Of a DNA stretch of 64,000 bases, positions 1 through 16,865 are shown in pieces. Both the position numbers and the translations under genes were made by a program. The stretch is taken from NCBI GenBank assembly GCA_024279865.1, contig JAJRRC010000022.1:1-64000 (forward strand). The letters are read 5' to 3'. Position 1 is the stretch's first letter. Every line of letters begins with the position of its first letter. The stretch comes from Planctomycetota bacterium. GTDB lineage: Bacteria > Planctomycetota > Phycisphaerae > Phycisphaerales > Phycisphaeraceae. The notes under the pieces are model-generated. The model was not told the origin of the DNA, ran no database searches, and saw nothing but the letters and a program-made list of their open reading frames with translations.

Positions 1-562
1 AGCCGGGGGAAAGTTTTTTTAGACAGGATTGACAGGGTCAATCCGATGGAACAGATCACTCAATCACCTTGGACTTCGATCCCTCTTACTGACAACTGAT
101 AGCTGATCGCTGATCGCTATTCAAGAATTTGCCCGCAAATATTGTCACACCCGTAAAAACCTAGACGCTCTGAACAGCATCTAAAAATAAATCCCAGGCC
201 GAGCCAACTTCCCCTTTTTACAAGCAAGGGAAGTGTCAAATCACACCGAAAACGGAACATTGGCAATACCACAAAAAACCGTTTTCTAGTTGTCTTGACC
301 AAAACCACCTGTTTTTTTTATTGATTTTCATTCTGACAACCGTACTATATATATAGGTTGTGAAGGTTAAGCTGAATATTTTCATGAACAACTTACCCCA
401 TGCCTGCAAAGGCGACCCAGAAAAACCGGCTTTAAAGTCCAAAAACGACGCTTTTAGATAGAAGACAACTAGACTATGGTTTTTATTGTTGTTTAACTGA
501 CTGGATTTATGCTATTTTTAGTGGACAATTGACACGATAAAGCATTGTCAAAGGAGTGTGCC
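1..562. other. Non-coding leader region upstream of the secretion ATPase
   Basis: No convincing gene is seen in this stretch; the short open frames have no recognisable domain and no good ribosome site. It begins with a remnant of the G-rich repeat (CCGGGGGAAAG then a T run) and contains a heptameric CTGAYAR array at 84-120. The last 100 bases are AT-rich and presumably hold the promoter of the secretion cluster. A weak -35/-10 candidate is TTGTTT at 489-494 with TATTTT at 513-518. A short dyad TTGACA (529-534) / TGTCAA (546-551) ends at the ribosome site of the next gene. Confidence 0.5.
84..120 (+). repeat. Heptameric CTGAYAR repeat array, copy 1
   Basis: Reads TCTTACTGACAACTGATAGC and continues with GCTGATCG units. 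It is one of eight copies in the window of an array built from 7-base units CTGATAG, CTGACAA or CTGATAA. It resembles the heptanucleotide short tandem repeats known from cyanobacteria, but here lies in a planctomycete-like background. Confidence 0.7.
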
Positions 563-2527
563 GTGGCCAAAAAGTCACGAAAAGAGAAAAACGGTGACCC
601 TCAAGCAGCTCAAGCAGATGCGGCGCCCGCTGTCGATCTAGAAACAGACGACGGGGACAATCTTGAAGTGGACACCGAGGACTTGGATCTCGGCGACATC
701 GAATTGACAGGTCAAGCCACCGACGAGGATATGGACGCTGAAGAAGAAGCTGAAGACCAGGCCTCTGCTGCTCAAGGCGATTCGGACGAGCCCAAGACCA
801 TTGACATCAAGCAACTGCAAGGCCGTCGCATTGGACGCATTCTCGTCAAGCTAGGCAAAGTCACCCGTGAACAGGTCCAAGAAGGTCTCCAAACCCAAAG
901 TCAGCGACGTTTGCCCTTGGGGCAACTGCTCGTCGAATTGGGCTATATCACCGATGAAGACATCAACCAAGCACTCGCAGCCCAAGCGGGCATGGAAACG
1001 CTGGACCTTGAGCAGCGAGAGATCGACGAAGAGACCATTCGTGTTTTGCCCGCGGAAACAGCCATTGCGTATCAGGTTTTTCCCATCAATTATGTCGAGG
1101 AAACCAATACCCTCACCATTGCACTTAAGAGCGCCGACAACTTCCGGGCCATCGATGACCTTCGGATGCTCATGGGCTACACCGTCAAGCCCGTCATTGC
1201 CGATGCCGCCCAGGTCGAACGGCTCATCAATCGCCACTACGGCGAAGAAGAAGAATCGCTCAGCGATCTCATCGGCGAGTTGGCTGCCGATTCCAAACTC
1301 GAAGAGCTTGGCGATGATGATGAAAGTATTGACCTTGCAGTCCTGCTTGAAGCGGCTGAAGACAATAAAGTCAAGCGTCTTTTGAACTTGGTTCTCATGC
1401 AGGCGATTAAAGACAAAGCCTCAGACGTGCACTTTGAACCGTTTGAAACAGAATTCAAAATGCGTTATCGCATTGACGGCGTGCTCTATGAAATGGTCCC
1501 CCCGCCCAAGCATTTGGCGTTGCCCATTGTCAGTCGTATCAAAGTCATGGCAGAGCTGGACATTGCTGAACGCCGCATGCCTCAAGACGGCCGCATCGAA
1601 TTAGCCGTCAACGGCAAACCTGTCGACTTGCGTATCGCAGTCCTTCCCACCCTCTTTGGCGAATCGGTCGTGATGCGTATTCTTGACCGTTCTGCGGTGA
1701 GCCTAGACCTTGACCGCATCGGCATGAGGTCTGACGACCTAGACTCCTTCCGCCAACTCATCCACAAGCCCAACGGCGTGGTTATTGTGACAGGACCAAC
1801 CGGCTCAGGTAAAACCACCACACTCTACTCGGCACTGAACGAGTTAAATTCAATCACCGAAAAAATCTGCACCGCAGAAGACCCTGTGGAATTTGATATT
1901 GACGGCCTCATCCAAGTCGGCATCAATGCAGACGTGGGACTAACCTTTGCCGCCGCCCTGCGTAGCTTCCTGCGACAAGACCCGGATATCATTTTCGTCG
2001 GTGAAACACGTGACCTCGAAACCGCCCGGATTTCCGTGCAGGCTGCCCTCACAGGCCATCTGGTTCTCACCACCTTGCATACCAACGACGCGCCCAGTTC
2101 CGTCGCACGACTTCTGGACCTTGGGCTTGAAACCTTCCTCATTACAGCGACCTTTGAAGGCGTGATCGCCCAACGCCTCGTCCGCACCATTTGTCCGCGA
2201 TGTATCCAAGCATATGACCCTTCAGATGAAGAACTTTTTGAACTGCAACTCACTCAAGAAGACCTCCAAGGCCGAGAAATTCGCCGCGGGAAGGGCTGTG
2301 ATTATTGCAATAAAAGTGGCTACAAAGGACGAATCGGACTGTTTGAAATTATGATCCTTGATGATGAAATGCGTGAAATGATCATGCAAAACGCATCCAC
2401 ACAAATTTTAAGAAATGAATCGCGCAAACGAGGCATGCGGACGCTGCGTGAGTCAGGCATGCTCGCCATCTTTGATGGCAAAACAACCATCAGTGAAGTG
2501 GTCTCCGAGACCATTGTCGAAGAATAA
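563..2527 (+). CDS. Type II secretion / type IV pilus assembly ATPase (GspE/PilB family)
   Basis: Hexameric cytoplasmic ATPase that powers pseudopilus or pilus assembly. The start chosen is GTG at 563, because AAGGAG lies at 551-556 with 6-base spacing; an upstream TTG at 545 would add six residues. This gives 654 aa. Seen in order: an acidic low-complexity N-terminus (to about residue 75); an MshEN-like N-terminal domain containing RRIGRILVKLGKV and LGQLLVELGYI; the T2SSE core with Walker A GPTGSGKTT at 411-419 and a GETRD Walker B region; and a tetracysteine zinc motif with C544, C547, C579 and C582, typical of GspE/PilB. The gene leads a same-strand series with a GspF-like protein and pseudopilins, so it should drive that machine. 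Family assignment is firm. Whether the machine is a secretion system or a pilus cannot be decided here, because secretin and prepilin peptidase genes are absent. Confidence 0.95.
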   Translation: MAKKSRKEKNGDPQAAQADAAPAVDLETDDGDNLEVDTEDLDLGDIELTGQATDEDMDAEEEAEDQASAAQGDSDEPKTIDIKQLQGRRIGRILVKLGKVTREQVQEGLQTQSQRRLPLGQLLVELGYITDEDINQALAAQAGMETLDLEQREIDEETIRVLPAETAIAYQVFPINYVEETNTLTIALKSADNFRAIDDLRMLMGYTVKPVIADAAQVERLINRHYGEEEESLSDLIGELAADSKLEELGDDDESIDLAVLLEAAEDNKVKRLLNLVLMQAIKDKASDVHFEPFETEFKMRYRIDGVLYEMVPPPKHLALPIVSRIKVMAELDIAERRMPQDGRIELAVNGKPVDLRIAVLPTLFGESVVMRILDRSAVSLDLDRIGMRSDDLDSFRQLIHKPNGVVIVTGPTGSGKTTTLYSALNELNSITEKICTAEDPVEFDIDGLIQVGINADVGLTFAAALRSFLRQDPDIIFVGETRDLETARISVQAALTGHLVLTTLHTNDAPSSVARLLDLGLETFLITATFEGVIAQRLVRTICPRCIQAYDPSDEELFELQLTQEDLQGREIRRGKGCDYCNKSGYKGRIGLFEIMILDDEMREMIMQNASTQILRNESRKRGMRTLRESGMLAIFDGKTTISEVVSETIVEE

Positions 2528-2576
2528 CCCCCCGGAGCCGGGACCCCGGACCCGAACCGCCGCCCCCGGTGTTCGA
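2528..2576. repeat. C-rich CCCCCGGA repeat cluster
   Basis: Directly after the ATPase stop codon, several imperfect copies of CCCCCGGA or CCCCGGACC follow one another. This is one of about a dozen loci of the same repeat family in the window. A potential fold with adjacent GCCGGG/CCCCGG could act at the 3' end of the transcript, but there is no T-tract. Confidence 0.6.
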
Positions 2577-2690
2577 CCCGAAAGAAGTACCCCAGCCGCT
2601 GGCTGGACTCAGTGCCACGCTCTGAAGTCTGCCTGAAAACTGGGTTGAAAAAAAGTAAGTACGCAACAGACCCCCCAAGGGAGATATGAC

Positions 2691-3971
2691 ATGCCAACCT
2701 ATGTCTATGAAGCACTCAATGATGCTGGTACACCTGAAAAAGGAACCATCGTCGCCGCCACCAACGAAGATGCCATCGCACGCATTCGGTCCAAGGGATA
2801 CTTTCCCACCTCCGTGCGTGAGCAGAAAGTTAAAAAACGCTCGGGCGGCGGAAAATCTGGTAGCAAATCGGGCGAAAAAAAGAAAATAAGCGAAATCACC
2901 ATCACCATTGGTGGTGTCTCCCAAAAGCATCTAACTGCTTTCACCCGACAACTCTCGACGCTTCAGGATGCAGGCTTGCCTATTTTGCGGTCGTTGCAGA
3001 TTCTTGAACAACAGCAAAAACCAGGCCTCCTCAAAAGCTCGCTCAAAGGAGTCTATGACGATGTATCAGGTGGTGCGACATTATCCGATGCCATGGCTCG
3101 ATACCCCAAAGCGTTTGACACGCTCTACACCAAAATGATCGCAGCCGGCGAAGTCGGCGGTGTGTTGGACTTGATCCTCCAACGACTTGCCGAGTTTATG
3201 GAAAAAGCAGCCAAGCTGAAAAAGAAAATCATCGGTGCGATGATTTACCCAGCCGTCGTCGTCGGCGTCGCGGGACTGATCGTGACTGGTATTATGGTTT
3301 TTATTGTTCCGAAATTTGAAAAGATTTTTGAAGATTTTGATACCGACCTCCCTGCCGTCACCACCATGCTCATGAATACCAGTCGTTGGATGGGCGGTTC
3401 ATTACCCGGCCAAATGATACCTGGCCTGATTTGGATTCTCTTTGGGCCTCCCTTGGTAGTCATTACGATTAAATTTTTACGCAAAACAAAAACGGGAAAA
3501 GTGGCCGTCGACAGAGTTGCCTTGCTTCTGCCCGTGGCAGGCAAGCTTATTTCAAAAAGCTCCATCGCCCGATTCACCCGAACCCTTGGCACCCTCATCA
3601 ATGCAGGTGTTCCCATTCTCGATGCCATCACCATTACCAGTGAAACCTCCGCAAACCAAATTTACCGAAATGCGCTCAATAGCGTCTATGAATCGGTTCG
3701 ACAAGGTGATAGCTTTGCTGAACCCCTGCGTAAAAGTCGCGTCTGCGATGGCATCGTCGTCAACATGATCGACGTCGGCGAAGAAACCGGTGACCTTGAC
3801 AAAATGCTCCTCAAAATCGCAGATAACTATGACGAAGAAGTCGACGTGATGGTGGAGAGCCTCGTCTCCTTGATCGAACCGATCATGGTGGTTGCCCTCG
3901 GCGGCATCGTCGGCTTCATCGTCATCGCGCTGTTCCTCCCGTTGGTCAAACTCATTACCACGCTCACCTAA
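2691..3971 (+). CDS. Type II secretion / type IV pilus inner-membrane platform protein (GspF/PilC family)
   Basis: Polytopic inner-membrane protein that couples the assembly ATPase to pseudopilin polymerisation. It has 426 aa, close to the family norm of about 400. The N-terminal 20 residues (PTYVYEALNDAGTPEKG) are the usual GspF/PilC beta-strand start. Two T2SSF domains follow: one at about 85-205, with FTRQLSTLQDAGLPILRSL and the TM segment IIGAMIYPAVVVGVAGLIV near 180; and one at about 290-415, with FTRTLGTLINAGVPILDAI, GEETGDLDKML and a final TM helix after IEPIMVV. Residues 45-75 are a lysine/glycine-rich insert. AAGGGAG at 2678-2684 supports the ATG. It follows the ATPase after 163 bases of C-rich repeat and spacer. 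Confidence 0.95.
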   Translation: MPTYVYEALNDAGTPEKGTIVAATNEDAIARIRSKGYFPTSVREQKVKKRSGGGKSGSKSGEKKKISEITITIGGVSQKHLTAFTRQLSTLQDAGLPILRSLQILEQQQKPGLLKSSLKGVYDDVSGGATLSDAMARYPKAFDTLYTKMIAAGEVGGVLDLILQRLAEFMEKAAKLKKKIIGAMIYPAVVVGVAGLIVTGIMVFIVPKFEKIFEDFDTDLPAVTTMLMNTSRWMGGSLPGQMIPGLIWILFGPPLVVITIKFLRKTKTGKVAVDRVALLLPVAGKLISKSSIARFTRTLGTLINAGVPILDAITITSETSANQIYRNALNSVYESVRQGDSFAEPLRKSRVCDGIVVNMIDVGEETGDLDKMLLKIADNYDEEVDVMVESLVSLIEPIMVVALGGIVGFIVIALFLPLVKLITTLT

Positions 3972-4062
3972 CCCCCCCGGAATCCCCCCTGAATCCCCCC
4001 GGAAGTTCCGGGGGGATTCAGGGGGGATTCCCAGAAACGTTCGCTTGGGAATAGCCCAAGTG
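3971..4062. repeat. Perfect 53-bp palindrome of the C/G-rich repeat plus a CTTGGGAATA palindrome
   Basis: Positions 3979-4004 and 4006-4031 are perfect 26-base inverted arms around a single G at 4005. The arms consist of GGAATCCCCCC and TGAATCCCCCCGGAA. Downstream, 4044-4060 is a second palindrome, CTTGGGAATAGCCCAAG. It sits between the GspF-like gene and the first pseudopilin gene and would form an extremely stable hairpin in mRNA. There is no T-tract, so it is not a canonical intrinsic terminator. Confidence 0.85.
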
Positions 4063-4139
4063 TTGAAAATGTTGGCCTTGAAAACATTGGCAAAACCATG
4101 ACAACCACAAAGTCACATCGAGACAAAAAGGAGACGCCA

Positions 4140-4667
4140 TTGAACATCACCGGATCAATTCAATCTGCGCTCTTGCGGTCTGGATCGAGACCACAAGTTG
4201 GCATGGGACTCATTGAAATGCTGTTCAGCATGGTGGCGATCATGGTGGTGCTAGGCATCATTGTCTTGGTGAGTAACACGCTTCGCGCTCAGACGGCCGA
4301 CGCGGACACCCGCCAAACGTTGCGTTTGCTGCGAGCCTCTTTACTGCAATACCACGAAACGCACAACACATGGCCCTCGGGGCCGACCTCTAACGCTTTA
4401 CTTGTGTTGTTATGTGACACGGCCGCCAAGTGTGCTGTTCAGAGTGTCCCGATCATCATGGCCCAACCGCGTGTACCTATAGTTTATGATGGTTTTGGTC
4501 ATGCGGTGGTTTACTTGCCTTCGCGTCGGGACTCGCCTCATCCGCCGGACTTTGCATCTGCAGGTCCAGATGGATACATGGGTGACTCGGCATCCCAGAA
4601 CGACAATCAACGCCTCGCTGCCACGGACAACATCTACGGCATCGATACGGAGGAACACCTGCAATGA
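4140..4667 (+). CDS. Pseudopilin with type IV prepilin signal
   Basis: Small membrane-anchored pseudopilin expected to enter the pseudopilus. The TTG at 4140 is preferred because AAGGAG lies 6 bases upstream (4128-4133); an in-frame ATG at 4098 has no comparable site and would add 14 residues. The 175-aa product has a 21-residue leader ending in G, cleavage G|MGLIEML, Glu at mature position 5, and a hydrophobic helix rich in M/V/I. The soluble part is about 130 residues, with four cysteines not in an obvious motif. The end overlaps the next pseudopilin start (ATGA), indicating translational coupling. The exact pseudopilin subtype is not assignable by eye. Confidence 0.85.
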   Translation: MNITGSIQSALLRSGSRPQVGMGLIEMLFSMVAIMVVLGIIVLVSNTLRAQTADADTRQTLRLLRASLLQYHETHNTWPSGPTSNALLVLLCDTAAKCAVQSVPIIMAQPRVPIVYDGFGHAVVYLPSRRDSPHPPDFASAGPDGYMGDSASQNDNQRLAATDNIYGIDTEEHLQ

Positions 4668-5377
4668 CCCCCCCCCCGGAAACCAAATTCTCGAAAGTAC
4701 AGATCAAAAGTTCGACCTCCAGAGCCTATACGCTCATTGAGATTCTGATGGTCATCGCACTCATCAGCCTTTTAGCGGGCTTGGTGATTGGCGCAGCCCG
4801 AAGCATGAAACGCAGCGCTCGCACCAGCGAAACCAAGATGATCCTAAGCATCTGTAAAAGCGTGGCCACTGAATATGAAACCTCCTTCAAAGGTCTCAAA
4901 ATCCCCCACTACGGACAAGGACAACTTTACGTCGAAGTCAATGTCGATTGGTCAACCGCCAAGACCAAAAACGCCCCCGGTGCCACCGGCACTGCGGTGA
5001 TTGACGATCCCATTGAACGATTTGTATGGCTTGTCCGACAGCATCCCACCGCAGCGAAGATGCTCAGAGTTCTCAGTAAAAACAGCTATCTTGATGCCGA
5101 TGGGAATGGGTTTCTGGAGATCAGGGATAGCTTTGATCAAAAAATCTCCTATGCCGTTTCGGTGGTCCATGACGATGATGGCGATGGCAACAAGTTGGAC
5201 GCTGAAGGTGCTGGTGATGACGACGATTTTCTGCCTGAATACCCACGCCCATTTTTTGCATCGAGGGGCGAGGATGAACTATGGGGCAACGCAAAAATTT
5301 TACCCACTGTGACCGATGCCAATAGCGATGGCGACGACGATGGCGATGACAACCTCTACTCCTATGAGACGGACTGA
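4664..5377 (+). CDS. Pseudopilin (GspG-like) with N-terminal methylation motif
   Basis: Type II secretion-like pseudopilin of 237 aa. The prepilin motif is A21|YTLIEILMVIALISLLAG with Glu at mature position 5. The -1 residue is Ala instead of the usual Gly. After the helix comes RTSETKMILSICKSVATEYE, the kind of region seen in GspG-like major pseudopilins. The C-terminal half is rich in D/G (DADGNG, DDDGDGNK, DANSDGDDDGDDN) and could bind calcium, as the C-terminal loop of GspG does; this is inference. Codons 2-5 (TPPP) are encoded by the C-run of the CCCCCGGAA repeat at 4668-4682. The start overlaps the previous stop, and the next gene begins three bases downstream. Confidence 0.88.
   Translation: MTPPPETKFSKVQIKSSTSRAYTLIEILMVIALISLLAGLVIGAARSMKRSARTSETKMILSICKSVATEYETSFKGLKIPHYGQGQLYVEVNVDWSTAKTKNAPGATGTAVIDDPIERFVWLVRQHPTAAKMLRVLSKNSYLDADGNGFLEIRDSFDQKISYAVSVVHDDDGDGNKLDAEGAGDDDDFLPEYPRPFFASRGEDELWGNAKILPTVTDANSDGDDDGDDNLYSYETD
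4668..4682 (+). repeat. C-rich repeat inside the start of a pseudopilin gene
   Basis: Ten C bases followed by GGAAA make up codons 2-6 of the pseudopilin at 4664. This matches the core of the CCCCCGGAA family. It lies in the part of the leader that is removed by the prepilin peptidase. Confidence 0.5.
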
Positions 5378-5380
5378 TCG

Positions 5381-6406
5381 ATGAACACTCCCAACAGAAC
5401 AATTTCATCGCGGATATTTCAAAGCAGTTGTCGCAAAGGGCATGCGTTCACACTCATCGAGCTATTGGTCGTGATTGCGATCATGGTCGCAGGCATGGCA
5501 CTGATCACCCCTTCGATTAACAAGTTCATCGAGCTGACCACCAGTGGGACCTCCAAAAACAGTATCAACGTCGCTATCTCCGCAGCAAGGTCCTATGCGG
5601 GAAGAAATAAATCACCTCTTATTGTTGACGGGACCACTGTTCCCTACGCCGGGTCAGCAATCATTTTTACGCCGTCGGGGAAACTACGTCTGGTGGAACA
5701 CAATCAGGCTGCCACATCTGATACTTCTCCTGTTAAGGTACTGAGTCACCCTACCACTGACCTTACCGGTTACAGGAACATTTCTGATCGTGATGATATT
5801 GTGCTTCCCAAAGATACCGCCATCTTTGGCATTGCGCGTAATGGTAGCGGCCTGCTTCTGCTCACACCACCCTTTGCCATTCGTTTCAATGAAGACGGGC
5901 AGTTGATTGCGGTAATCAGTCCCACTTCTGATAACTTTGTCTATTACGATGCCAACTATGATGGCCAATACAACATTACTGCTTCCACCGGCTCTTTTTC
6001 TGATGGTTCTGATCGCCAAAATCCCTATGGGCCCCAAGCCTACAACGACACCAGTTCAACTGGCGGGCCCTACAATCCCAACAAATGGGACTTTCGGCGG
6101 GAAGAACAGGCCAGTGTATCAGACTCTGAAGGCTATGACCCTGCTTATTTCAATGAAACCGAGCAACGCGTTGAGCTTCCTTTCGAAGGCATGGAAACGG
6201 TCATCGGCATTATCGTCGCATCACGGAAAGACATGAATGAAGCGAATCTGAATCTGATCGCCAAACTAAATGAAACCAGCGGCGACTTGAATACCGCTGC
6301 CAAAGACTGGCTGTTGGCAGACAGTGACAGCGACGGCGAACCGGACCATGCCACTGTCATGTTTTTCAGCCGCTACAGCGGAACTTTTTTGAACCATAAT
6401 CGTTAA
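5381..6406 (+). CDS. Pseudopilin (GspH-like) with prepilin motif
   Basis: Pseudopilin of 341 aa. The leader ends at A22 and the mature N-terminus is FTLIELLVVIAIMVAGMALI with Glu at position 5. As in the preceding gene, Ala replaces the usual Gly at -1. The region after the helix (INKFIELTTSGTSKNSINVAISAARSYAGRN) resembles GspH/FimT-type minor pseudopilins, and the soluble domain is unusually long. Acidic stretches such as DSDSDGEPDH occur near the C-terminus. The gene lies three bases after the upstream pseudopilin and three bases before the next, so the five pseudopilin genes are tightly packed and probably co-transcribed. Confidence 0.87.
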   Translation: MNTPNRTISSRIFQSSCRKGHAFTLIELLVVIAIMVAGMALITPSINKFIELTTSGTSKNSINVAISAARSYAGRNKSPLIVDGTTVPYAGSAIIFTPSGKLRLVEHNQAATSDTSPVKVLSHPTTDLTGYRNISDRDDIVLPKDTAIFGIARNGSGLLLLTPPFAIRFNEDGQLIAVISPTSDNFVYYDANYDGQYNITASTGSFSDGSDRQNPYGPQAYNDTSSTGGPYNPNKWDFRREEQASVSDSEGYDPAYFNETEQRVELPFEGMETVIGIIVASRKDMNEANLNLIAKLNETSGDLNTAAKDWLLADSDSDGEPDHATVMFFSRYSGTFLNHNR

Positions 6407-6409
6407 AAC

Positions 6410-7438
6410 ATGAAAAACTTCACCCACATCATTTGCGTTTCACACAAGCCCTGCCAACGAAGCTTCCGGGGGCGGGGGCGGGGGTTTACGTTGTTGGAAG
6501 TCCTACTGGCGTTGGGCATCTTCGCGATTGGTTTTTCCTTTATTGCAGCTATTTTCCCGGTCGCAGCATTGTTACAAAAACGAGCGTTTGACGATGTAAA
6601 GGCTCAACAAGTCACCCGCAATACCGAAGCGTTGTTGCGTGGCCGAGGAATCAATGAAACAGATTTAGAAAATACAGGCTATGGCTTACCACGAACTGGC
6701 ACGCATTCTTTCGATTACGACACAGATCAAAAAGTCCATCCTATGCCACGTCGAATGCTTTCCGCCATTGCACCATTATCTCCGACAATCTGGACGCTCA
6801 GCGACCGCAGTTCCCCTTCGCTCATCAGCGACCCAACCGCTCGCAAGTTCTACTGGGTTCCACTTGTGGTGGATACCGATCCGGGTTTTCCCTCCGTCTA
6901 CAAATGGCGAATCTATGTTTTTGTTTTGCAAAAACGAAACAATGCCTCGTACGACCTTATCCCTTCGTACGCACCTTTCACAGGCACTGGCGTTAACGCT
7001 GATGTCTGGGCCAATCCTGATGACGACTCGGCCGATGGTAATAGCACTACGATTGATGGCCTTGTGCCTCGTGTCCGCAGCGTCAAGGTTTCCAAAGACA
7101 ATTCCTTCGCTAATCAGTTGAATTTCAACACCACAGACTTTAACAGAGACAATGACGGCAATGGTTTGCCGGACCAGATTGCTGTCGGCGATGAAATTCT
7201 GGATAACAACGGCACAATTTATACCGTTTTTGAAACGGGCGCAGACTACATCCGCGTCGATGGTAGATATGGCATGATCAATCCAATTCCCAACCCGGTT
7301 ACGGAAATCTGGTACGCCCCGCCGGGACATCAGCCTTCTGCCGCCACACCCAATGCTGATATACCTTCTGGCAAACCCAGTCCGACCGTACGCATCTTGA
7401 TCCTTCCGAACGGAACTGACAACCCCATTATCAAATAA
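6410..7438 (+). CDS. Pseudopilin (GspI/PulI-like) with prepilin motif
   Basis: Pseudopilin of 342 aa. The mature start is G25|FTLLEVLLALGIFAIGFS with Glu at position 5, as in GspI/GspV-type minor pseudopilins. The leader just before the cleavage site reads FRGRGRG and is encoded by a G-rich repeat (6464-6487). The downstream domain is long and has no recognised catalytic motif; it is rich in N/D/G/P and looks like an extracytoplasmic beta-rich domain. It is tightly linked to its neighbours (three-base gaps). Family is clear from the N-terminus; the subtype is an inference from order and the LLEVLLAL signature. Confidence 0.86.
   Translation: MKNFTHIICVSHKPCQRSFRGRGRGFTLLEVLLALGIFAIGFSFIAAIFPVAALLQKRAFDDVKAQQVTRNTEALLRGRGINETDLENTGYGLPRTGTHSFDYDTDQKVHPMPRRMLSAIAPLSPTIWTLSDRSSPSLISDPTARKFYWVPLVVDTDPGFPSVYKWRIYVFVLQKRNNASYDLIPSYAPFTGTGVNADVWANPDDDSADGNSTTIDGLVPRVRSVKVSKDNSFANQLNFNTTDFNRDNDGNGLPDQIAVGDEILDNNGTIYTVFETGADYIRVDGRYGMINPIPNPVTEIWYAPPGHQPSAATPNADIPSGKPSPTVRILILPNGTDNPIIK
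6464..6487 (+). repeat. G-rich repeat inside a pseudopilin leader
   Basis: TTCCGGGGGCGGGGGCGGGG encodes FRGRGRG, ending exactly at the prepilin peptidase cleavage site of the 6410 gene. It shares the TTCCGGGGG core with the family that elsewhere lies between genes or in C-terminal tails. Confidence 0.6.
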
Positions 7439-7440
7439 TC

Positions 7441-8892
7441 ATGAAACAGACGACCAAACAATTTGCGGGCTTCACTTTGATTGAACTAATCGTTTCAATC
7501 ACCATCGTGAGTATGATGCTGTTTCTAATCAACCGTATCTTTTTTGATACGACCAAAGCGGTCAGTCGAGGTATCGCCACCAGTAAGATCATTGCCAACG
7601 CCAGAGCCATCGGCGATCAATTCCAACGTGATTTTGTGGATAGTGATTCCGCCAAGTACCATCAGGTTGGCCCCACAGATGATGGCATCCTTGTTATTCT
7701 CAATAAAAGTTTTTCTGGCATAACCTTCCATGACCCTCGGGCAAATGGTGGCCTCGTGACACGATCCGTTCGAAGCGACCAGTTGATGTTTATCTATAAC
7801 AATGGTACCGCAAGTGAACCGCTTGAACCCTTGGCTCCAGGAAGCACAGGATCATTTTCCAATTCCACCGATGCGCCCTATGCACGCATCTGGTATGGCC
7901 ACGTGCTTTATACCGAGCCAGATGGTACTGACCCAACCAATACAAGCTTGGGAAATATGAACAGCCTAAACCCATTTGGCCAACGATGGGCCTTGGGGCG
8001 ACAGGCACTCTTCCTTCATGAAACACTAACAGGAGTAGGCCTTTCAACCGTCCATGCCAACGGCATGGTTTATTACTCCCCCGTTGTCGGGTACACCTCC
8101 GGCACTACACTCAATGCAGGTGTTGTAGATCAACTCTATTCAGGCTTAACAGATATCGCCTATTTCAGTTTCAATGATGGTTCAAGTGCAGGAGGTGTTG
8201 CAAACGGATTTCTTGTCGGTAACGCGTTAAGTACCGCACTTCTGAAAGCAGGTTCTGGCATGACCGCAGCAGCATACAAAACTCAATGCTACGACTTGAC
8301 CTACGGAATAACACGCTTGCGAGTGAATCCGCGACCCGGCGGGACGACATTTATGAGTTCTGAAATTGCACAAATGCACTCACTGTTCATGACCGAAGTC
8401 AGCGACTTTATCGTAGAGTTTGCTGGGGATTACATAGACAATACAACCGGGGCGACCGGGGCGGACTCTCAAATAGACGTGGACCGTTCCAATCCCTCGT
8501 TTCCAGCTATCGACAATGATATGAATGGTGTTCCCTACACCTATTCGGGAGGCAATATTATCTGGTATAGCCATTGGGTAAATAACCCACGCACTCCGGC
8601 CAGTTACGACTCAACACTGCCCGCCCTCCATCAGGTTCCAACGGGTGTTGGAGGCTTTAATGATGCAACACCAGGCCCTTCCTATGACACCACTAGCAAC
8701 CCCGCATTGTCTGATGCGGCCTTTGTCTTTCGCCATGACGATGATGGGGCCGGTACCCGTTGGCCTTATCTACTCCGCATCCGTTATCGCTTGCATGACC
8801 CCAAGGGTGAATTGCTCGGCTACAGCGATGCCAGCGGGCAAGCTGAACCGGGCAAGTGGTTTGAAATTATTATTAATGTTAATCGGGATTAA
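7441..8892 (+). CDS. Pseudopilin (GspJ-like) with prepilin motif
   Basis: Pseudopilin of 483 aa, much longer than classical GspJ (about 200 aa). It has a short 10-residue leader ending in G, then FTLIELIVSITIVSMMLFLI with Glu at mature position 5. Immediately after the helix are RIFFDTTKAVSRGIATSKII and ANARAIGDQFQRDF, which match the coiled alpha region of GspJ. The remaining 400 residues are a long extracytoplasmic domain rich in G/S/N/Y, with no recognised enzyme motif. It ends before a 113-base gap with a heptameric repeat, then the first giant GspK-like gene. GspI, GspJ and GspK form the tip complex in characterised systems, which fits the gene order here. Confidence 0.87.
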   Translation: MKQTTKQFAGFTLIELIVSITIVSMMLFLINRIFFDTTKAVSRGIATSKIIANARAIGDQFQRDFVDSDSAKYHQVGPTDDGILVILNKSFSGITFHDPRANGGLVTRSVRSDQLMFIYNNGTASEPLEPLAPGSTGSFSNSTDAPYARIWYGHVLYTEPDGTDPTNTSLGNMNSLNPFGQRWALGRQALFLHETLTGVGLSTVHANGMVYYSPVVGYTSGTTLNAGVVDQLYSGLTDIAYFSFNDGSSAGGVANGFLVGNALSTALLKAGSGMTAAAYKTQCYDLTYGITRLRVNPRPGGTTFMSSEIAQMHSLFMTEVSDFIVEFAGDYIDNTTGATGADSQIDVDRSNPSFPAIDNDMNGVPYTYSGGNIIWYSHWVNNPRTPASYDSTLPALHQVPTGVGGFNDATPGPSYDTTSNPALSDAAFVFRHDDDGAGTRWPYLLRIRYRLHDPKGELLGYSDASGQAEPGKWFEIIINVNRD

Positions 8893-8919
8893 CAAAAGTT
8901 ATGTAAGAAGCTATGAAAA

Positions 8920-8957
8920 GAAGCTATCAGCCATCAGCTATCAGTCATCAGTAAGAG
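8920..8957 (-). repeat. Heptameric CTGAYAR repeat array, copy 2
   Basis: On the + strand it reads GCTATCAGCCATCAGCTATC and then AGTCATCAGTAAGAG, which is the reverse orientation relative to copy 1. It occupies most of the gap between the GspJ-like and GspK-like genes. Confidence 0.7.
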
Positions 8958-9005
8958 GGGATATTCGGAGTGAATACTTGCGACTCTCTGATTAGGAGAA
9001 CTGCT

Positions 9006-12000
9006 ATGAAAACCAACACTTTTCAAAATCCACGTGGCTCGGTCATGCTTATGGTCGTTGTTGTTCTGGTCCTCTTGGCCATGATCGGTACTGCTTACCT
9101 GCAAGTGGCTCGACTGGACCGCGTGGCGACTGCTCAACTGACGACCAATAACATTGATATCGTTGCCGCGGCGGTCACGTCCTATATCAGTGATGTTTTA
9201 AAAAATGATCTTCTGGATGATACGCAGCAATTTCTATTTACCGCCGGTGAAGATGAGCCTTATGACTATCCGTGGACGAACACAAGTGCCCCAGGCTATG
9301 ACGTTCAGGACAGTAGTGGCGGCCTACTGGGCACGGCACAGGGGGGCAAAAACGATGATACATGGCTCGCTTCGACGGAGCCGGACTTTGGTGCTACAGC
9401 AGCGAATACGGATGATGTCTGGCCTCATCTAACCAACCTGACAGGGGTGTTGTTGCGAATACGTAAGGATCGGGCCCAGCCAGAGGAATATGTTACGGAC
9501 AATTCCACGATCTATCTAGGTAGAGATACCAACGTTAAGATTGCCAGTGCCACCAATTCACTTTCCTATGTGGTAGGTTCGCCGACCAATACTTGGACTC
9601 TTGGTGCCGATGCTGATGGCGATGGGGTGCTTGACAGTCGTTGGACGTGGGCGCCCATTCGCCAGATATCAGGCATCAGCTATGTCATGGCGGTGCGGAT
9701 TGTAGACAACAGTGCGATGCTTAATGCCAATGTGGCATTGAGCCAGGTCAGTGCAGCCAATGCCTATGATGCCGACACCATTGGCATGGACGCGCCGCGA
9801 TGGGCGTTCCCCACCACGTTGGACTTCGGCAATTTCTACTTCAGCACTGATGCTGCGCCTACCGACGCCAAGCTGCAAGACTTTCTGGAGTATCGCCTGG
9901 GTATGGCCACCATTTCCACACGCATACCCTGGGACATTGGCCCAAACACAACGGACTTCAACAAAACGCGTTTTGGTTTCTGGCTTGATGCTGCTCGACG
10001 CTGGGGGAATTTTGATGCCGCGTTTGTATCACTGAACAACAACGATGAATTGGAATTGAGACACCGAAACGGGCTGAACAATCTGAACATTGATACGAAT
10101 ATCGAATTGAACGCTCAGGGGATGGATGCGTTTCTACGTCAAGGTGATACGGAATTGGCCTACACCGATATAACGGGACTCAAGGGCGTGGTGGGTACGC
10201 CCACGGTGCAGGAGTTTTTTGAACTAGAACCCCGCCATCAATTGACAACCACCAGCGGAGCAGCGACCTATGCGATGGCGTTGCCTGACGAACCGGGAAC
10301 CACCCCCATTACGCACAATGGCATTGTCTATAGTAACGCCAATGGGAACATGACCGTCTTTAACGATCTTGGAATTCTGTTTAAGGAGGACATCAACACG
10401 CTGGCATTGCAAACGACCGCGACCAATTTATCTCTGGAAATTCGCAAGGTGATTGAGCGTGGCACGTTCACCATTCCGCCTCATGTCAATTCGGTCGGGG
10501 GACTGACGGCAGAGCAGAAGCTCGAATACTTTGCCAACCAGGCTGCCGTCTCGATTCAGGACGCGGTGGACCCGGACAATCATCTGCGGGTTTATCAGGG
10601 ACGTTATGGCCTCGAAGCATTGCCCGTGATTACAGAAGTCTATATTCAGCGAGCGTACAAGGTTTCGGCTGCCATACCTGCCGGGGCAGGAGCGCCCACG
10701 TTGCCGACCAATGGGGAATGGGCTGCAACAGTCACGACCTCGACCAGTGAAAAAACCGGCTGGGCCATTGAAATTCGCAACCCCTATCAGCGCCCGATCC
10801 GTTTGAAGGATGTCTTTCTCTATATCGATGGGACAAGAATTGGAACTTCCGATTTAGATAGTATTTTTGGACTCAGGTTGGCAAGCGACACATGGGATCG
10901 ACAACTTTATCCTGGCCAGACGTTGATTGTGTACAAAGACTCAACAACCCCCCATGCTGACGGGCGTAATAGCATCATTTCTTTGCTCCCAACCTTTGCA
11001 GTATGGACCACTTCTACCAGCTATTCCGTCGGCGACAAAGTTTGGCAATCAGGCAAAGGCTATCAATGTATCAGTGCTCACACTTCCTCGGGAACAAACC
11101 AGCCAGGCAGTGTTGCGGGGCCACTGACATGGCAGCTTATCCGGGTAGAAGAAAACTACTCCACCTTCGATTGGCCAGAGGACCTCAATGGCACGGTAAG
11201 CGTGGAACTGCGTGCGAAAAACCAGCAAAGTGGTTTGGAACTACCTTGGCCTTATGACAAGTACACAGCAGTGAAGTGGGCCTCGGCAGATTCAAGACCG
11301 TTCAGTAGCGTTTTGTTGCCGATGCCCAACGGCTATTGGACCATCGGCACAACCTATACCGCCGGACAGATCGTGCGGTCGCCGAATGCCTCGTATCGGG
11401 CTTATAAACGATTGAGTATCAACCCCGGGCCTGAGACCGCTGCGGAGGAACCCGAAGTGGGAGGATTTTGGGCGAACCACTGGGAACTGGCACCAGAAGC
11501 AGACACGGTCTATCTACAATCCAGTCGTATCGGCAGTAGCCGTGGTATCAATCGGCTGGCAAGCCTACCTAACTCGGCAGATACCGATACCGCTGTTTTT
11601 CGGTCACTGCGAGCAGAGACATTTCGCGATTACCTTCCTCGCTTGGGAAAAGTAGATAAACGCAACGTAGATTGGGTCACTGCCATCTCCTATTCCCCAG
11701 GCAATATCGTCTTCAATAGCAGTGTCAGTGGAGGCGATAATAAAACCTATCTTTGCCAAATTGCACACACATCGTCCGTCAGTAACCGACCGGACGTGGG
11801 GACTGCCGATTGGCGAGAAATCCCGCCCGGCGGAGCGCAGGATAAATTTGATCCCACCAATTCCCAGATCGTCTTGACCGATACGGTGACCGCCGAGCAA
11901 TGGAACGTGAATAAACCTTATGCCATCGGCGATGCGGTGAGTAATAGCAATGGTGTTGTTTTCACCTGCATTGCAGCCAATACGGGGGGAACCGAACCCA

Positions 12001-12839
12001 CGGCACCGACCGCGTCTTGGGTTTTACACTGGCGGGACGAGCAACCTGTCTCACACATCATAGAACTGTCGGAGATGATTCTCGCAGGCCCTGACAGCAC
12101 ACGCACCATCAGAGATATCGTCAATCAGGCAGCAAGCCTCGACGCTCTGCGGCTGGATATGGTAAGCAGCAGTACCACCTATGTCGGGGGGGGCCAACTG
12201 GCGATCCCTCATGCCATCGCACTGATGCACCGATTCACCACGACCTACCCAAGCACGGACGGGGAGGATAATGACGGCGATACGGACATTGATGAACCGG
12301 GTGAATCCCTGGTGCCTGGCCTGATTAACTTCAATACCGCGCCAACGCATCTACTTGAAAAAATCCTGCCCATTGCCAACGCCACATTGCGGTCCGATGT
12401 GGTCGCAGCCATTAAAGCCTATCGAGAGGGTGCAGGTCGCCTGACCAACTGGCGAACAGCCCAAGGATTTGCCTATACGGAAGAAATTCATCGGGCGTTG
12501 ACAGCAGCATCAAGTGCAAATCTGACCAGTGGCCCCTTTGCCGGTGACACGGATATGATCGGGACCACGGTGGTTGATTTCAACAATCCCACCCAATTAG
12601 TGCCTGATGGCATTGCTGACGACCGCGAAGAAGAAATGATGCTCTCCAAGTGGCTCAGTCAGGTTGGCACCACGCGCAGTGATATCTTTACTGCTTACAT
12701 TCTCCTCAAGGGCTACCCGGCAGGGAATTTCTGGCTCGGAGCAGTGGAGTCCAAACGGCTGCTGGTCGTCTTTGATCGATCGGGCATTGTCACTGGCACT
12801 GAGCCTGTGAAAGTGCTAGGCATCTTCGAAGTCAACTAA
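9006..12839 (+). CDS. Giant GspK-like minor pseudopilin with four chitin-binding-like modules
   Basis: The ATG at 9006 follows AGGAG at 8994-8998 with 7-base spacing; an in-frame GTG at 8970 would add 12 residues. This gives 1277 aa. The N-terminus PRG|SVMLMVVVVLVLLAMIGTA is a prepilin-like helix lacking Glu5, as in GspK. About 200-450 resembles the GspK body, and near 1104 is GLINFNTAPTHLLEKILPI, the helix-hairpin-helix-like INxNTA motif of GspK. It is preceded by an acidic DGEDNDGDTDIDEPGE loop that may bind calcium. Between about 660 and 1015 are four copies of a W-x-Y-x2-GD-x-V-x-Y-x-C-x2-AHTS pattern (about 663-710, 776-832, 888-942 and 964-1013) resembling CBM5/12 chitin-binding modules. 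The paralogue at 13591 lacks these modules. GspK caps the pseudopilus tip, so carbohydrate-binding modules there would face the exterior; that role is inference. Confidence 0.82.
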   Translation: MKTNTFQNPRGSVMLMVVVVLVLLAMIGTAYLQVARLDRVATAQLTTNNIDIVAAAVTSYISDVLKNDLLDDTQQFLFTAGEDEPYDYPWTNTSAPGYDVQDSSGGLLGTAQGGKNDDTWLASTEPDFGATAANTDDVWPHLTNLTGVLLRIRKDRAQPEEYVTDNSTIYLGRDTNVKIASATNSLSYVVGSPTNTWTLGADADGDGVLDSRWTWAPIRQISGISYVMAVRIVDNSAMLNANVALSQVSAANAYDADTIGMDAPRWAFPTTLDFGNFYFSTDAAPTDAKLQDFLEYRLGMATISTRIPWDIGPNTTDFNKTRFGFWLDAARRWGNFDAAFVSLNNNDELELRHRNGLNNLNIDTNIELNAQGMDAFLRQGDTELAYTDITGLKGVVGTPTVQEFFELEPRHQLTTTSGAATYAMALPDEPGTTPITHNGIVYSNANGNMTVFNDLGILFKEDINTLALQTTATNLSLEIRKVIERGTFTIPPHVNSVGGLTAEQKLEYFANQAAVSIQDAVDPDNHLRVYQGRYGLEALPVITEVYIQRAYKVSAAIPAGAGAPTLPTNGEWAATVTTSTSEKTGWAIEIRNPYQRPIRLKDVFLYIDGTRIGTSDLDSIFGLRLASDTWDRQLYPGQTLIVYKDSTTPHADGRNSIISLLPTFAVWTTSTSYSVGDKVWQSGKGYQCISAHTSSGTNQPGSVAGPLTWQLIRVEENYSTFDWPEDLNGTVSVELRAKNQQSGLELPWPYDKYTAVKWASADSRPFSSVLLPMPNGYWTIGTTYTAGQIVRSPNASYRAYKRLSINPGPETAAEEPEVGGFWANHWELAPEADTVYLQSSRIGSSRGINRLASLPNSADTDTAVFRSLRAETFRDYLPRLGKVDKRNVDWVTAISYSPGNIVFNSSVSGGDNKTYLCQIAHTSSVSNRPDVGTADWREIPPGGAQDKFDPTNSQIVLTDTVTAEQWNVNKPYAIGDAVSNSNGVVFTCIAANTGGTEPTAPTASWVLHWRDEQPVSHIIELSEMILAGPDSTRTIRDIVNQAASLDALRLDMVSSSTTYVGGGQLAIPHAIALMHRFTTTYPSTDGEDNDGDTDIDEPGESLVPGLINFNTAPTHLLEKILPIANATLRSDVVAAIKAYREGAGRLTNWRTAQGFAYTEEIHRALTAASSANLTSGPFAGDTDMIGTTVVDFNNPTQLVPDGIADDREEEMMLSKWLSQVGTTRSDIFTAYILLKGYPAGNFWLGAVESKRLLVVFDRSGIVTGTEPVKVLGIFEVN

Positions 12840-13008
12840 AATAGGGTTCGTCTATTTGTCACGCTTAGGACAACCTCAAAGGGGAATCCGACCCTTCAGC
12901 AGACTTCAGGGTGCGGCGTTGTGATGATCACAGGTGAACTGTGAGCTATCACCATGCGGAACCTTGAAGGCTCCCCTCTTCAGGACGTTATACCAATCGC
13001 AACTGAAT

Positions 13009-13056
13009 TCTTCCGCCCCCGCCCCCGGAATCGCCCCGGAAGCGCCCCGGTTTCTT
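13009..13056. repeat. C-rich CCCCCGGAA repeat cluster
   Basis: Tandem variants CCGCCCCCGCCCCCGGAATC, then GCCCCGGAAG and CGCCCCGG, with roughly 12-base periodicity in the second half. They belong to the same family as the copies at 3971, 29302 and 35514. Confidence 0.65.
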
Positions 13057-13118
13057 GTGTACGTGGCTTTTTTAAGTGGTCAGTAAGAAACAGAGCAGAA
13101 AAGGATGGAAACTTCAGA

Positions 13119-13243
13119 TAGAGCCGTTTGCGTAAATAAACGATGATCATGCTTAAGCTGATCGTTTGAAAACAGCCGCACGCTTACAGCGTGCGCGTCG
13201 GATCCCCCAATACAAGTGGAGATCATTTACGCAAGTTGCTCTA
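13119..13243. mobile_element. MITE-like 125-bp palindromic element
   Basis: Terminal inverted repeats TAGAGCCGTTTGCGTAAAT (13119-13137) and the complement of TAGAGCAACTTGCGTAAAT (13225-13243) match at 16 of 19 bases. Inside lie a second inverted pair AAACGAT/ATCGTTT and a central hairpin at 13177-13195. It has no coding capacity. A non-autonomous transposon-like origin is inference; no second full copy is seen in the window. Confidence 0.4.
13164..13200 (+). repeat. Interspersed hairpin repeat (CGCACGCT/AGCGTGCG), copy 1
   Basis: CGTTTGAAAACAGC leads into an 8-bp perfect stem, CGCACGCT (13177-13184) and AGCGTGCG (13188-13195), with loop TAC. Similar units occur at 18555 and 31626. Confidence 0.75.
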
Positions 13244-13271
13244 AAGCTGGCAAACCGTGTCCGATTATCTT

Positions 13272-13302
13272 CTCTTACTGACAACTGATAACTGAGAGCT
13301 TT
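13272..13302 (+). repeat. Heptameric CTGAYAR repeat array, copy 3
   Basis: Reads CTCTTACTGACAACTGATAA, then CTGAGAGCTTTAA. Same orientation as copy 1. Confidence 0.65.
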
Positions 13303-13590
13303 AAAAACTTTCATCAAGAAAATTCCCATACCCAATGGGTCTATCAACCCTGTAAACAACCCTTGTATTTTGTGCGGTTTGTAGGGACTCGTTCTATTTT
13401 TTTGTCTGTTGCGATTGAAACATCTCTTTGGAATGCCTCTCTATTTGCAAGACCAACGCGTCGTTCTTTAGGTTCTGTACCGACTGTTCGGTTTTGAATC
13501 TCGTTGTTCAAAATTCATTCTTGCCTTTGGGTAAATATGACATGCGTGACCAGTCGATCTGATCGTTGAAACCCCATGGGAGCAACGGGC

Positions 13591-14814
13591 ATGACTTGTA
13601 CATTCAATGCGTCAATTGGTAAACAACCTTGCGTCAAACAGCGAGGGTCCGTCATGCTATTGACGGTCGTCTCACTACTGATGCTCTCCATGATCGGCAT
13701 GGCTTACTTGCAGGTCAGCCGCCTCGACCGCGTCACCGCAGCACAAATTTCAACCAATAACATTGATATCGTCGCGGCAGCAGTGTCAGCCTATATCGGC
13801 GAAACGCTGGTGAATGACCTAGTCGACCCACAAGGGAACTTCTTTAACGAAGCCAATGGCATCGAGTCCTACGATTATCCGTGGACAAACCCCGAGGTGA
13901 ACTTTAGTGTCCTCAAAGCAGATGGCTCGACCGCCATCGCCCAAGGTGGCCTGCTAGACGACTCTTGGCTGGCCTCAACCGAACCTGACTTTTCAGGGAG
14001 TGAACCAAAGTGGCCTCACCTGACCAACCTCAACGGCATCTTTCTGGAATTGCCTCGATCAGACAAAAATAAAAAACAGCCCAAAGAACGGGTTCTCAAA
14101 GGTAGTAACCCACAAAAAACCGATACCAATGTACCCATCACAGGCAATAAATCTCTGACCGAGTCAAGCAGCAAATATGAAGCACCGGGTGTGGATGCTG
14201 ATGGCGATGGTATTGTCGATAGCCGTTGGACATGGGCAACCATCCGCCAGATTTCAGGCATCAGCTACATCATGGCGGTTCGGATTGTGGACAACAGTGC
14301 GATGCTCAACGCGAACGTGGCCTTGAGTCAGGTCAGTGCAGCGGACACGTTTGATACGTCCACCCAAGGCACCGATGCCCCGCGATGGAGCTATCCGACA
14401 GAACTAGACTTGGGCAATTTTGTCTTCAAGTCCGGCGGCACCGCCACGGAACTCCAACAGTTTCTCAAATATCGTCTGGGAACCACGACCACGCCACCCT
14501 TGCCTTTGCCTTGGACGGGCGCGGTTGATTCACGGGCTTTTTTCTGGCTGGCGGGACCGAGTTTGTTTGGCAATTTTAATAGTGCCAATCTGGGCTTCAC
14601 CACCAACTATCGTAAATTAAGCATTGTGGATGAACTGGAACTGCGTTACAAAAATGGCTTGAACAATGACCGCGCGACGACCACGATTGAATCAACGTCC
14701 AATGGATTGTTTGGTTTGTTACGGGAATCTGCCACGGGTGAAGCGAGTTATACCGATGTGTCTGGCGTGACGTCGATGCAGACTTTTTTGAAAATGAACC
14801 GCGTCATCAAATGA
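13591..14814 (+). CDS. GspK-like minor pseudopilin, N-terminal part of a frameshifted gene
   Basis: Paralogue of the first third of the protein at 9006: both share AYLQVxRLDRV, TNNIDIVAAAV, YDYPWTN, RQISGISY, MAVRIVDNSAMLNANVALSQ and DELELRxxNGLNN. ATG at 13591 has GGGAG 8 bases upstream; an in-frame ATG at 13576 would add five residues. The N-terminus has the KQRGSVMLLTVVSLLMLSMIG helix. The frame ends at a TGA after TFLKMNRVIK, where the paralogue continues QEFFELEPRHQL. Adding one T to the six-T run at about 14785-14790 restores TFFENEPRHQM and joins this frame to the 14811 frame. The gene is therefore one coding unit split by a single-base frameshift. Whether this is a real mutation, slippage or an assembly error is not decidable here. 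Confidence 0.75.
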   Translation: MTCTFNASIGKQPCVKQRGSVMLLTVVSLLMLSMIGMAYLQVSRLDRVTAAQISTNNIDIVAAAVSAYIGETLVNDLVDPQGNFFNEANGIESYDYPWTNPEVNFSVLKADGSTAIAQGGLLDDSWLASTEPDFSGSEPKWPHLTNLNGIFLELPRSDKNKKQPKERVLKGSNPQKTDTNVPITGNKSLTESSSKYEAPGVDADGDGIVDSRWTWATIRQISGISYIMAVRIVDNSAMLNANVALSQVSAADTFDTSTQGTDAPRWSYPTELDLGNFVFKSGGTATELQQFLKYRLGTTTTPPLPLPWTGAVDSRAFFWLAGPSLFGNFNSANLGFTTNYRKLSIVDELELRYKNGLNNDRATTTIESTSNGLFGLLRESATGEASYTDVSGVTSMQTFLKMNRVIK

Positions 14815-16865
14815 CTTTATTTAGTGGGGCATCGATTGCCACATTGCCGTTGCCTGGCGAAACGGGGCTGGTGGTGAAGCGTGACTTGAACATGATGGTT
14901 CAAAACGCACCCGCTGAATTAGCGACTCAAATCCAGGCTGTTTTTAATGTGGGCGAGACTCCTCACTTGCCTGAGGGCATTGCCAATGAGCAAGCCTTGG
15001 CGGATCAGCTCACCGCCAATTTGGTGGATTACGCCGACGCGGACAATCAATTGACCGAGCAGGATGGGCGGTTTGGTTTTGAAGCGTTGCCAACATTAAC
15101 TGAAGTCTATGTTCAACGGCCTTACACGGTAGCGTTTGCTTTTCAGTGGCCTTATTCACCACAACGGTGGTACATGGTCATGCTCTCGGCAGACGCGCAG
15201 CACCAACCTGGCTATGCGGTGGAAATCCGCAACCCCTTCTCCCATCCGATTAGCCTCACGAACGTTCATCTGTATGCAGACTCAACGAAACTTGTCAACG
15301 GCCTCACGGGCGTGACGGACCTTGATGCCATTGCAGGGGCCTCGCTTGCGTCAGCCAATGGTGGGGATCGCAGGCTACTACCTGGGCAAGCTCTTGTGCT
15401 GTATCGCAATTCGGACATTTCAGGGAACAGCAATGGAGACCATGATATCACCTCGCTGATTGAAGATGACTCGCCTGCGGGCATCACGTCGCCGATTCGG
15501 GTGAGCATAGATGACCAGCCGTTGTTGGTTGCCGACAGCATGTGGTCCGGCGGCAGCAATCTTCAAGCACGCGATATCAGTTTTGAATTGCGAGCAGAAG
15601 ATGCTCAGGGCAATGAACTCACGTGGCCTTACAGCCAAATCAATGGTAAATCGTTCCGCACCAACACCAGCTCCCTCATCGACTTTGGCATTGTGCGAAC
15701 CAATGCAATCAACCTTGTCGGCCAAACGGTTTACACGCAATACAGTCGTTTTGCCAACCCCAAAGGACTCAATGCACTGGCCTATGCCTCGCCCCAGATG
15801 CAGGCGAATCAAACGCCTGTCACCTTTAATTTCTGGGATCTATTTTTCGGGGGCACGCCTCAGTTTATCGAGGTACATGACCGACTTGGGCTAGAAGACA
15901 AATCCAATGTCCAGTCACAAACCAATCTGCCTGGCAATATCAACAAGACCTATTACGCGTTGGGATTTTCTGGCGAAAAGTTTGATACAACCGCCAATCA
16001 ATGGATCATCAGCAATGAAGCTTTTGACTCTGTTGGAGAAATCGCTCATGTGCCTGTGGTCGGTCCGGACCCGACCCGCACGCTAGCCACAGCGCTCGAC
16101 CCAACCCATGCAGCCTCTACATTGGACTTGCATGACTTTATGCTCAACATTCATAGCGACCGACTCGTCAGCACCGACGACACCAGTGCCTTGGCGTTGC
16201 CCCATGCGTTGGTGTTAATGGAACGACTCGTCACACTTAGCCCTGATGAAGATGGGCTGGACAATGATGGCGATGGTGCAGCAGACGAGGCGGACCTTGA
16301 ACAGGATGAAATTTTCATTGCTGGCACGATTAATATCAACACCGCCACCGCAGGCTTGCTTAACAAAATCTTGCCGATTACGGATACCACGCTACGTGCA
16401 AATGTCGTGACCCATCTGCTGGCCTACCGTGACCAACAGGCTCCTTATGACAACACCAATCGTCATGTCGGAGGCAACTACCGCAACAGTCCGGGCATGG
16501 CCTTGGTCAGTGAACTGTACAACATCGACTCAAACGGCGGGACCAATATCCTCGCCACCAACAACAGTGATGACGATGCCATCAACAACACGGTGATTGA
16601 CTTTTTGGATAACCCTGATGCGGTCACCTCCGATGGCGTCAAAGATGATCGCGAAGAAGAAACCCTTCTCTCCCGCCAACTGGGGAACGTTTTATCAACC
16701 CGAAGCGATATCTTCACAGCCTACATCTATCTCCGAGGCTACCCCGCTGGAGACTTCCGCTTAGGAGCCATCGAAACCAAACGCTTCTTCGTGGTCTACG
16801 ACCGATCCCGTGTCGTCAATGCCCAGTCCCCCGCAAAAATCCTAGGCTTCTACGAAATGAGATAG
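14811..16865 (+). CDS. GspK-like minor pseudopilin, C-terminal part of a frameshifted gene
   Basis: C-terminal two thirds of the paralogue of the 9006 protein. The nominal ATG at 14811 overlaps the upstream stop but has no convincing ribosome site, and the first residues (MTLFSGASIATLPLPGE) align to the interior of the paralogue (LTTTSGAATYAMALPDE). Homologous landmarks are DGRFGFEALPTLTEVYVQRPY, GYAVEIRNPF, LLPGQALVLY, a calcium-like DEDGLDNDGDGAADEAD loop, the INxNTA motif in TININTATAGLLNKILPI, DDREEETLLSRQL, STRSDIFTAYIYLRGYPAGDF and an end at GFYEMR. The four chitin-binding-like modules of the paralogue are missing: the sequence passes directly from ELTWPYSQINGKSF to the conserved QYSRF segment. 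It converges with mreD, 11 bases away. Confidence 0.75.
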   Translation: MTLFSGASIATLPLPGETGLVVKRDLNMMVQNAPAELATQIQAVFNVGETPHLPEGIANEQALADQLTANLVDYADADNQLTEQDGRFGFEALPTLTEVYVQRPYTVAFAFQWPYSPQRWYMVMLSADAQHQPGYAVEIRNPFSHPISLTNVHLYADSTKLVNGLTGVTDLDAIAGASLASANGGDRRLLPGQALVLYRNSDISGNSNGDHDITSLIEDDSPAGITSPIRVSIDDQPLLVADSMWSGGSNLQARDISFELRAEDAQGNELTWPYSQINGKSFRTNTSSLIDFGIVRTNAINLVGQTVYTQYSRFANPKGLNALAYASPQMQANQTPVTFNFWDLFFGGTPQFIEVHDRLGLEDKSNVQSQTNLPGNINKTYYALGFSGEKFDTTANQWIISNEAFDSVGEIAHVPVVGPDPTRTLATALDPTHAASTLDLHDFMLNIHSDRLVSTDDTSALALPHALVLMERLVTLSPDEDGLDNDGDGAADEADLEQDEIFIAGTININTATAGLLNKILPITDTTLRANVVTHLLAYRDQQAPYDNTNRHVGGNYRNSPGMALVSELYNIDSNGGTNILATNNSDDDAINNTVIDFLDNPDAVTSDGVKDDREEETLLSRQLGNVLSTRSDIFTAYIYLRGYPAGDFRLGAIETKRFFVVYDRSRVVNAQSPAKILGFYEMR

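Follow-up and report, generated by a model that had tools for sequence, protein, structure and literature searches.

GspK is a minor pseudopilin of the T2SS whose caps stay periplasmic in the classical system; to our knowledge, its bulky extra domain has no settled function. Modular pilins number more than 1200 in 264 architectures, and GspK is named as modular (PMC8179133), while PilC of Streptococcus sanguinis carries a glycan-binding lectin module at the tip (PMC9934059). CBM5/12 chitin-binding domains are attached to enzymes such as ChiA1 (PDB 1ED7), for which a title cited by PMC8449059 gives Gln679 and Trp687 as the residues that bind chitin. Here, we describe a tip-type pilin gene in a window of 64,000 nucleotides (the whole stretch of DNA that was analysed) from a planctomycete genome of 3.42 Mb that is 95.7% complete. 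Its product has a prepilin-type N terminus and domains that are not specific to pili, which makes it a modular pilin. As in S. sanguinis PilB and PilC (PMC8179133, PMC9934059), an extra non-pilin domain is grafted on a tip-type pilin; here, in contrast, the host is GspK-like, the additions are four modules of the CBM5/12 type in separate loops of an Ig-like domain, and their binding is putative.

The genes from 545 to 12839 form a type IV filament cassette, and a second GspK-like gene follows. The features are listed below, all on the forward strand.

545–2527, forward: GspE/PilB-type assembly ATPase with MshEN (T2SSE 2.4e-135, MshEN 2.5e-18)
2691–3971, forward: GspF-type platform protein (T2SSF 1e-65)
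4098–4667, 4664–5377, 5381–6406, 6410–7438 and 7441–8892, forward: five pilin-like genes, four of them with N_methyl matches
8970–12839, forward: gene for the GspK-like (tip) pseudopilin; a GTG start gives 1289 codons, with the stop ending at 12839
10740–12110, forward: lamin-tail-like beta domain, approximate extent (about residues 580–1035), the loops of which hold the four modules
10992–11141, forward: module 1, residues 663–712, CBM5/12 fold, Asn at the Trp687 position
11325–11495, forward: module 2, residues 774–830, the most divergent of the four, Glu at the Trp687 position
11661–11825, forward: module 3, residues 886–940, Asn at the Trp687 position
11889–12044, forward: module 4, residues 962–1013, an extra Trp (W1005/W1009 pair), gap at the Trp687 position
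13576–16865, forward: module-free GspK-like paralogue, split into open reading frames 13576–14814 and 14811–16865

Among the five pilin-like genes, three N_methyl matches are above the cut-off and one is just below; the first gene has a weak GspG-type match, and the fifth immediately precedes the GspK-like gene, in the position of GspJ. On inspection, none of the cassette genes was recognised as GspC, L or M, and the four secretin matches of the genome all lie on other contigs, so that a classical T2SS would be a putative assignment for the system. The ATPase passes the NCBIfam c-di-GMP-binding model (54.2 bits, cut-off 38), and the filament may thus be under c-di-GMP control.

An alternative start of the GspK-like gene, the ATG at 9006, gives a protein of 1277 aa, which is the form numbered here. 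The N terminus is prepilin-type, PRG/SVMLMVVVVLVLLAMIG, and lacks Glu at +5; it was identified by visual inspection and homology, and the Pfam N_methyl model does not match it. Like GspK, the protein also contains the INxNTA motif of the alpha domain, in which N1108 and N1110 are invariant across the family alignment, and its gene is placed after the pilin genes; unlike GspK, it is several times larger, carries a lamin-tail-like insertion and CBM modules, and has no T2SSK match of its own in the Pfam/NCBIfam profile search. Distant homologues reach 6.7e-5 and 23.6 bits with T2SSK, just under the cut-off of 24.2, and HHH_3 is matched at 6e-12 in more distant family members. We read the protein as GspK-like with a lamin-tail-like insertion. 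Homologues are present in 52 of 61 related genomes. A search of genome contigs with the single protein gave no matches; a search with the family alignment found relatives, the named ones being Phycisphaeraceae, Phycisphaerales or other Planctomycetota. The whole-family profile gave only chance matches to PDB sequences. Near-invariant across the family is a calcium-loop-like stretch, DADGDGxxDSRW, at about 9609–9645 of the window (residues 202–213).

The preliminary description had placed four CBM5/12-like repeats in this protein, and the four modules are recovered at positions that agree to within two residues. In hmmscan, CBM_5_12 (PF02839) matches the whole protein in three stretches (E=5.6e-13, 49.1 bits, cut-off 26.2). 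Module 1 alone exceeds the cut-off (1.3e-8, 35.2 bits), and modules 2, 3 and 4 alone fall below it (0.0016, 0.0057 and 7.1e-5; 17–23 bits). Each module was also scored with a model that left out its own position and used the other three, in the window and its two orthologues, and compared with 1000 shuffles: modules 1 to 4 of the window score 37.9, 16.3, 30.8 and 26.1 bits against shuffle maxima of 8.9, 11.1, 12.8 and 12.4, and in no case did any shuffle do as well. This test rules out a chance repeat, and a recent tandem duplication within the gene is ruled out by orthologues that share the modules at the same sites, including module 2 in L082. The modules are thus real, but the motif first proposed for all of them is exact only in module 1: GD is replaced by GQ in module 2 and by GN in module 3, and AHTS occurs in modules 1 and 3 only.

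The claim that the modules are inserted in a GspK-like host is borne out by the alignment, in which module-free homologues are gapped at exactly these four places and the intervening sequence aligns; the modules are therefore inserts at four separate places of one domain. The host domain is matched by Pfam LTD (PF00932) in relatives at 2e-5, below its cut-off, and with a weak full-length model the top-ranked Foldseek matches are lamin Ig-fold chains (E 0.03–1, none individually significant). That AF2 model (1200 aa, 23 rows) has a pLDDT of 56.6, with the modules mostly below 50–55, so it carries no claim on the arrangement or exposure of the modules.

Module 1, modelled by AF2 from a 12-row alignment, has a pLDDT of 95.1. 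The model superimposes on the CBM of the V. cholerae deacetylase (VcCOD, 4NYY) with Z 9.6 and an rmsd of 0.6 A over 46 residues, and on 1ED7 with Z 6.4, and core residues are shared with both; the prediction of a CBM5/12 fold for module 1 is sound, and the same fold is likely for modules 2–4. Nearest in fold are the CBMs of chitin deacetylases and chitinases. Further matches include phage tail fibres, baseplate, T4 portal vertex/head and contractile-injection cap proteins; in the tail fibre, tailspike and baseplate modules 9RKV, 7EEA, 8FQC and 8KEC the fold is likewise a non-enzymatic accessory, but those are phage host-recognition or structural proteins with an identity of about 19–29%. A phage search with module 1 returned one unannotated record (38.8% identity, E=7e-4), and a phage origin is not claimed.

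Modules of this kind are present in 4 of 51 genomes of the family, not in all homologues, and only two other genomes among those searched in the family have all four, at identical sites. CP087563.1 ('Planctomycetes bacterium syqfu', L082, genome G030) encodes a colinear GspK-like protein with 37% identity over its full length, and NORP295 (L080, genome G074) has the four modules on a contig that ends inside the gene. In a tree built with the modules cut out, the three module-bearing proteins form one clade (99/99), the module-free paralogue of the window groups with module-free second copies of G030 and G073 (100/99), and a third GspK-like type is held by G073 and G072. On this tree, the single clade indicates one old gain, in one gene lineage, with the modules kept in two genera. 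The suggestion that they were gained or lost as accessory modules is thus borne out in part: the modules are absent from the paralogue and nearly all homologues, but they were gained once, the gain does not appear recent, and each of the three proteins has the full set of four.

The combination of pilin and module has arisen more than once, since an independent fusion exists in G016, of the same family, where a 227-aa GspG-like pilin (L078:6779–7462; N_methyl 1.9e-6) in a similar cassette carries a C-terminal CBM_5_12 module at 1.3e-7, above the cut-off. In G332, of another planctomycete family, a long protein whose N terminus looks pilin-like by eye (L167:712–3114) has two CBM5/12-like modules. 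CBM_5_12 is matched at 3e-5 in 8 of 392 genomes drawn from the phylum; judged from these sequences, such modules are rare in the phylum, occur more than once on pilin-type proteins, and lack the chitin-binding Trp. The window genome has a further CBM5/12-like module on a GAF/HlyD-type protein (G000:C33, L040:7557–9575; Pfam 2.4e-4, below the cut-off).

The tip gene differs from its neighbours in how it varies between close relatives. G030, with modules, and G073, without, come from the same genus, and the gene order around their cassettes is the same. Upstream of the tip gene (K), their proteins are 97% (GspE), 99% (GspF), 80, 84 and 75% (pilins) and 55% (J) identical, and downstream 93% (LacI), 95% (pilin) and 96% (next gene); K itself is 42% identical, with 82% over the first 60 residues. 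At fourfold-degenerate sites, identity is 72% in GspE, 83% in GspF and 61–67% in the downstream genes, and in K it is 54/196 (28%), where chance is 29% (K versus the three downstream genes, 204/321: Fisher p=1.4e-15). Fast protein change alone is not expected to saturate the silent sites of one gene between unsaturated neighbours, and the tip gene therefore appears to have been replaced by recombination, or old tandem paralogues to have been sorted by loss. At the protein level, K of G030 is closer to K of G074 (55%) than to K of G073 (42%). That tip genes diverge fastest as a general rule is rejected: in another same-genus pair, G018/G066, the divergence of K does not exceed that of the pilins.

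Relevant to sorting by loss, the tandem GspK-like pair is still present in the window. The downstream paralogue is 54% identical to the 1277-aa protein over residues 9–394 and does lack all four modules, as had been claimed, but at a T6 run near 14785–14790 an apparent frameshift splits it into two overlapping open reading frames; the shift could be a real lesion, a programmed shift or an assembly error. The two genes are separated by 736 bases (12840–13575), in which inverted repeats are visible by eye (TTTGCGTAAAT / ATTTACGCAA and CGCACGC..GCGTGCG), possibly a mobile-element remnant. The genes beyond the paralogue lie on the opposite strand and include MreC and MreB.

The modules had been described as chitin-binding, with a conserved aromatic platform as the critical test, and on this point the proposal fails at the canonical position. 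Counting on 1ED7 places Trp687 at the W of GWEP and Gln679 at the Q of CLQP. The Trp687 equivalent, retained in 1ED7, 4ILV, 4TX8 and 8YH4, four solved relatives among the matches listed, is non-aromatic or gapped in 12 of 12 modules of the window and its two orthologues, and likewise in the G016 pilin module and the G332 module; the Gln679 equivalent is replaced too. Module 1 thus folds confidently as CBM5/12 but has no aromatic residue at the canonical position, and, unlike the ChiA1 and VcCOD domains, these modules are loop insertions in a protein of the pilin type. In module 4, all three orthologues do retain another Trp, located four positions ahead of the module's last Trp, which is possibly part of an unconventional binding platform. 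That the modules are working chitin- or cellulose-binding domains, through which the tip would attach the cell to chitin or bring secreted enzymes onto it, is suggested by the best PDB sequence match of module 1, the ChiA1 domain (E=1.6e-5), and by its closest folds; the replaced residues speak against it, as does the search for a GH18 chitinase, which found no match in the 95.7%-complete genome. With the Trp687 position lost and GH18 unmatched, classical chitin binding is unlikely, and we regard this explanation as very improbable.

The explanation we favour, to which we would give about an even chance, is a multivalent tip that binds a ligand other than chitin, as a variant of the modular pilin kind. 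The GspK-like pilin part and alpha domain would serve for entry into the filament, with the lamin-tail (Ig-like) domain inserted in this part and the modules set in its loops. The protein would be assembled first and so come to cap the filament that the neighbouring GspE/GspF machine builds, where the four modules, displayed together, would bind avidly to a ligand outside the outer membrane. Because the Trp that grips chitin is gone, crystalline chitin is an improbable ligand, and we consider a surface protein or a glycan of another kind more likely. The missing Trp also weighs against this explanation, since it leaves binding of any sugar by the modules putative. The tip gene would be exchanged or sorted between lineages with the machine kept, as expected for a receptor-binding part. 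An adhesive or docking function, as proposed at the outset, remains our inference.

The main rival holds that the modules are spacers or stabilisers, small rigid inserts of the CBM5/12 fold that enlarge and stiffen the tip domain and have no specific ligand. That none of the 12 modules retains the binding Trp fits this, as do the fold matches in phage tails, baseplates and heads and the injection cap, where the role may be structural, a point that also counts against a binding tip; but the joint retention of four inserts at identical sites across two genera, and the extra Trp of module 4 kept in 3/3 orthologues, are harder to reconcile with mere spacing, and module-free paralogues manage without inserts. 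We consider it rather unlikely. Adhesion is also not an obvious role for the genome's other module, and the HlyD-like protein that bears it fits better with an improbable alternative, in which the modules would serve as docking sites, within the periplasm, for secretion substrates or for envelope glycan (peptidoglycan), at the loading tip of a true T2SS instead of an adhesin outside. The periplasmic location of GspK caps in the classical T2SS agrees with this, whereas the cassette, with no GspC, L or M recognised, secretins elsewhere and an ATPase with MshEN, as in pilus systems, does not.

The multivalent binding tip may be taken a step further, to an exchangeable receptor-binding head on the filament cap in planctomycetes of this family, in which an Ig-like scaffold with four re-purposed CBM5/12 modules is swapped between strains like a phage receptor-binding protein and the machine stays fixed. 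We offer this extension as speculative and unlikely as it stands. The G018/G066 pair, without excess divergence of K over the pilins, counts against the favoured explanation.

A CBM_5_12 match in Planctomycetota need not imply chitin binding. The repertoire of modular pilins gains modules of the CBM5/12 fold, set in the loops of a lamin-tail-like domain, and a tip with recognisable modules that are present or absent among close relatives at one locus would allow a direct test of whether a pseudopilus tip binds something outside the cell.
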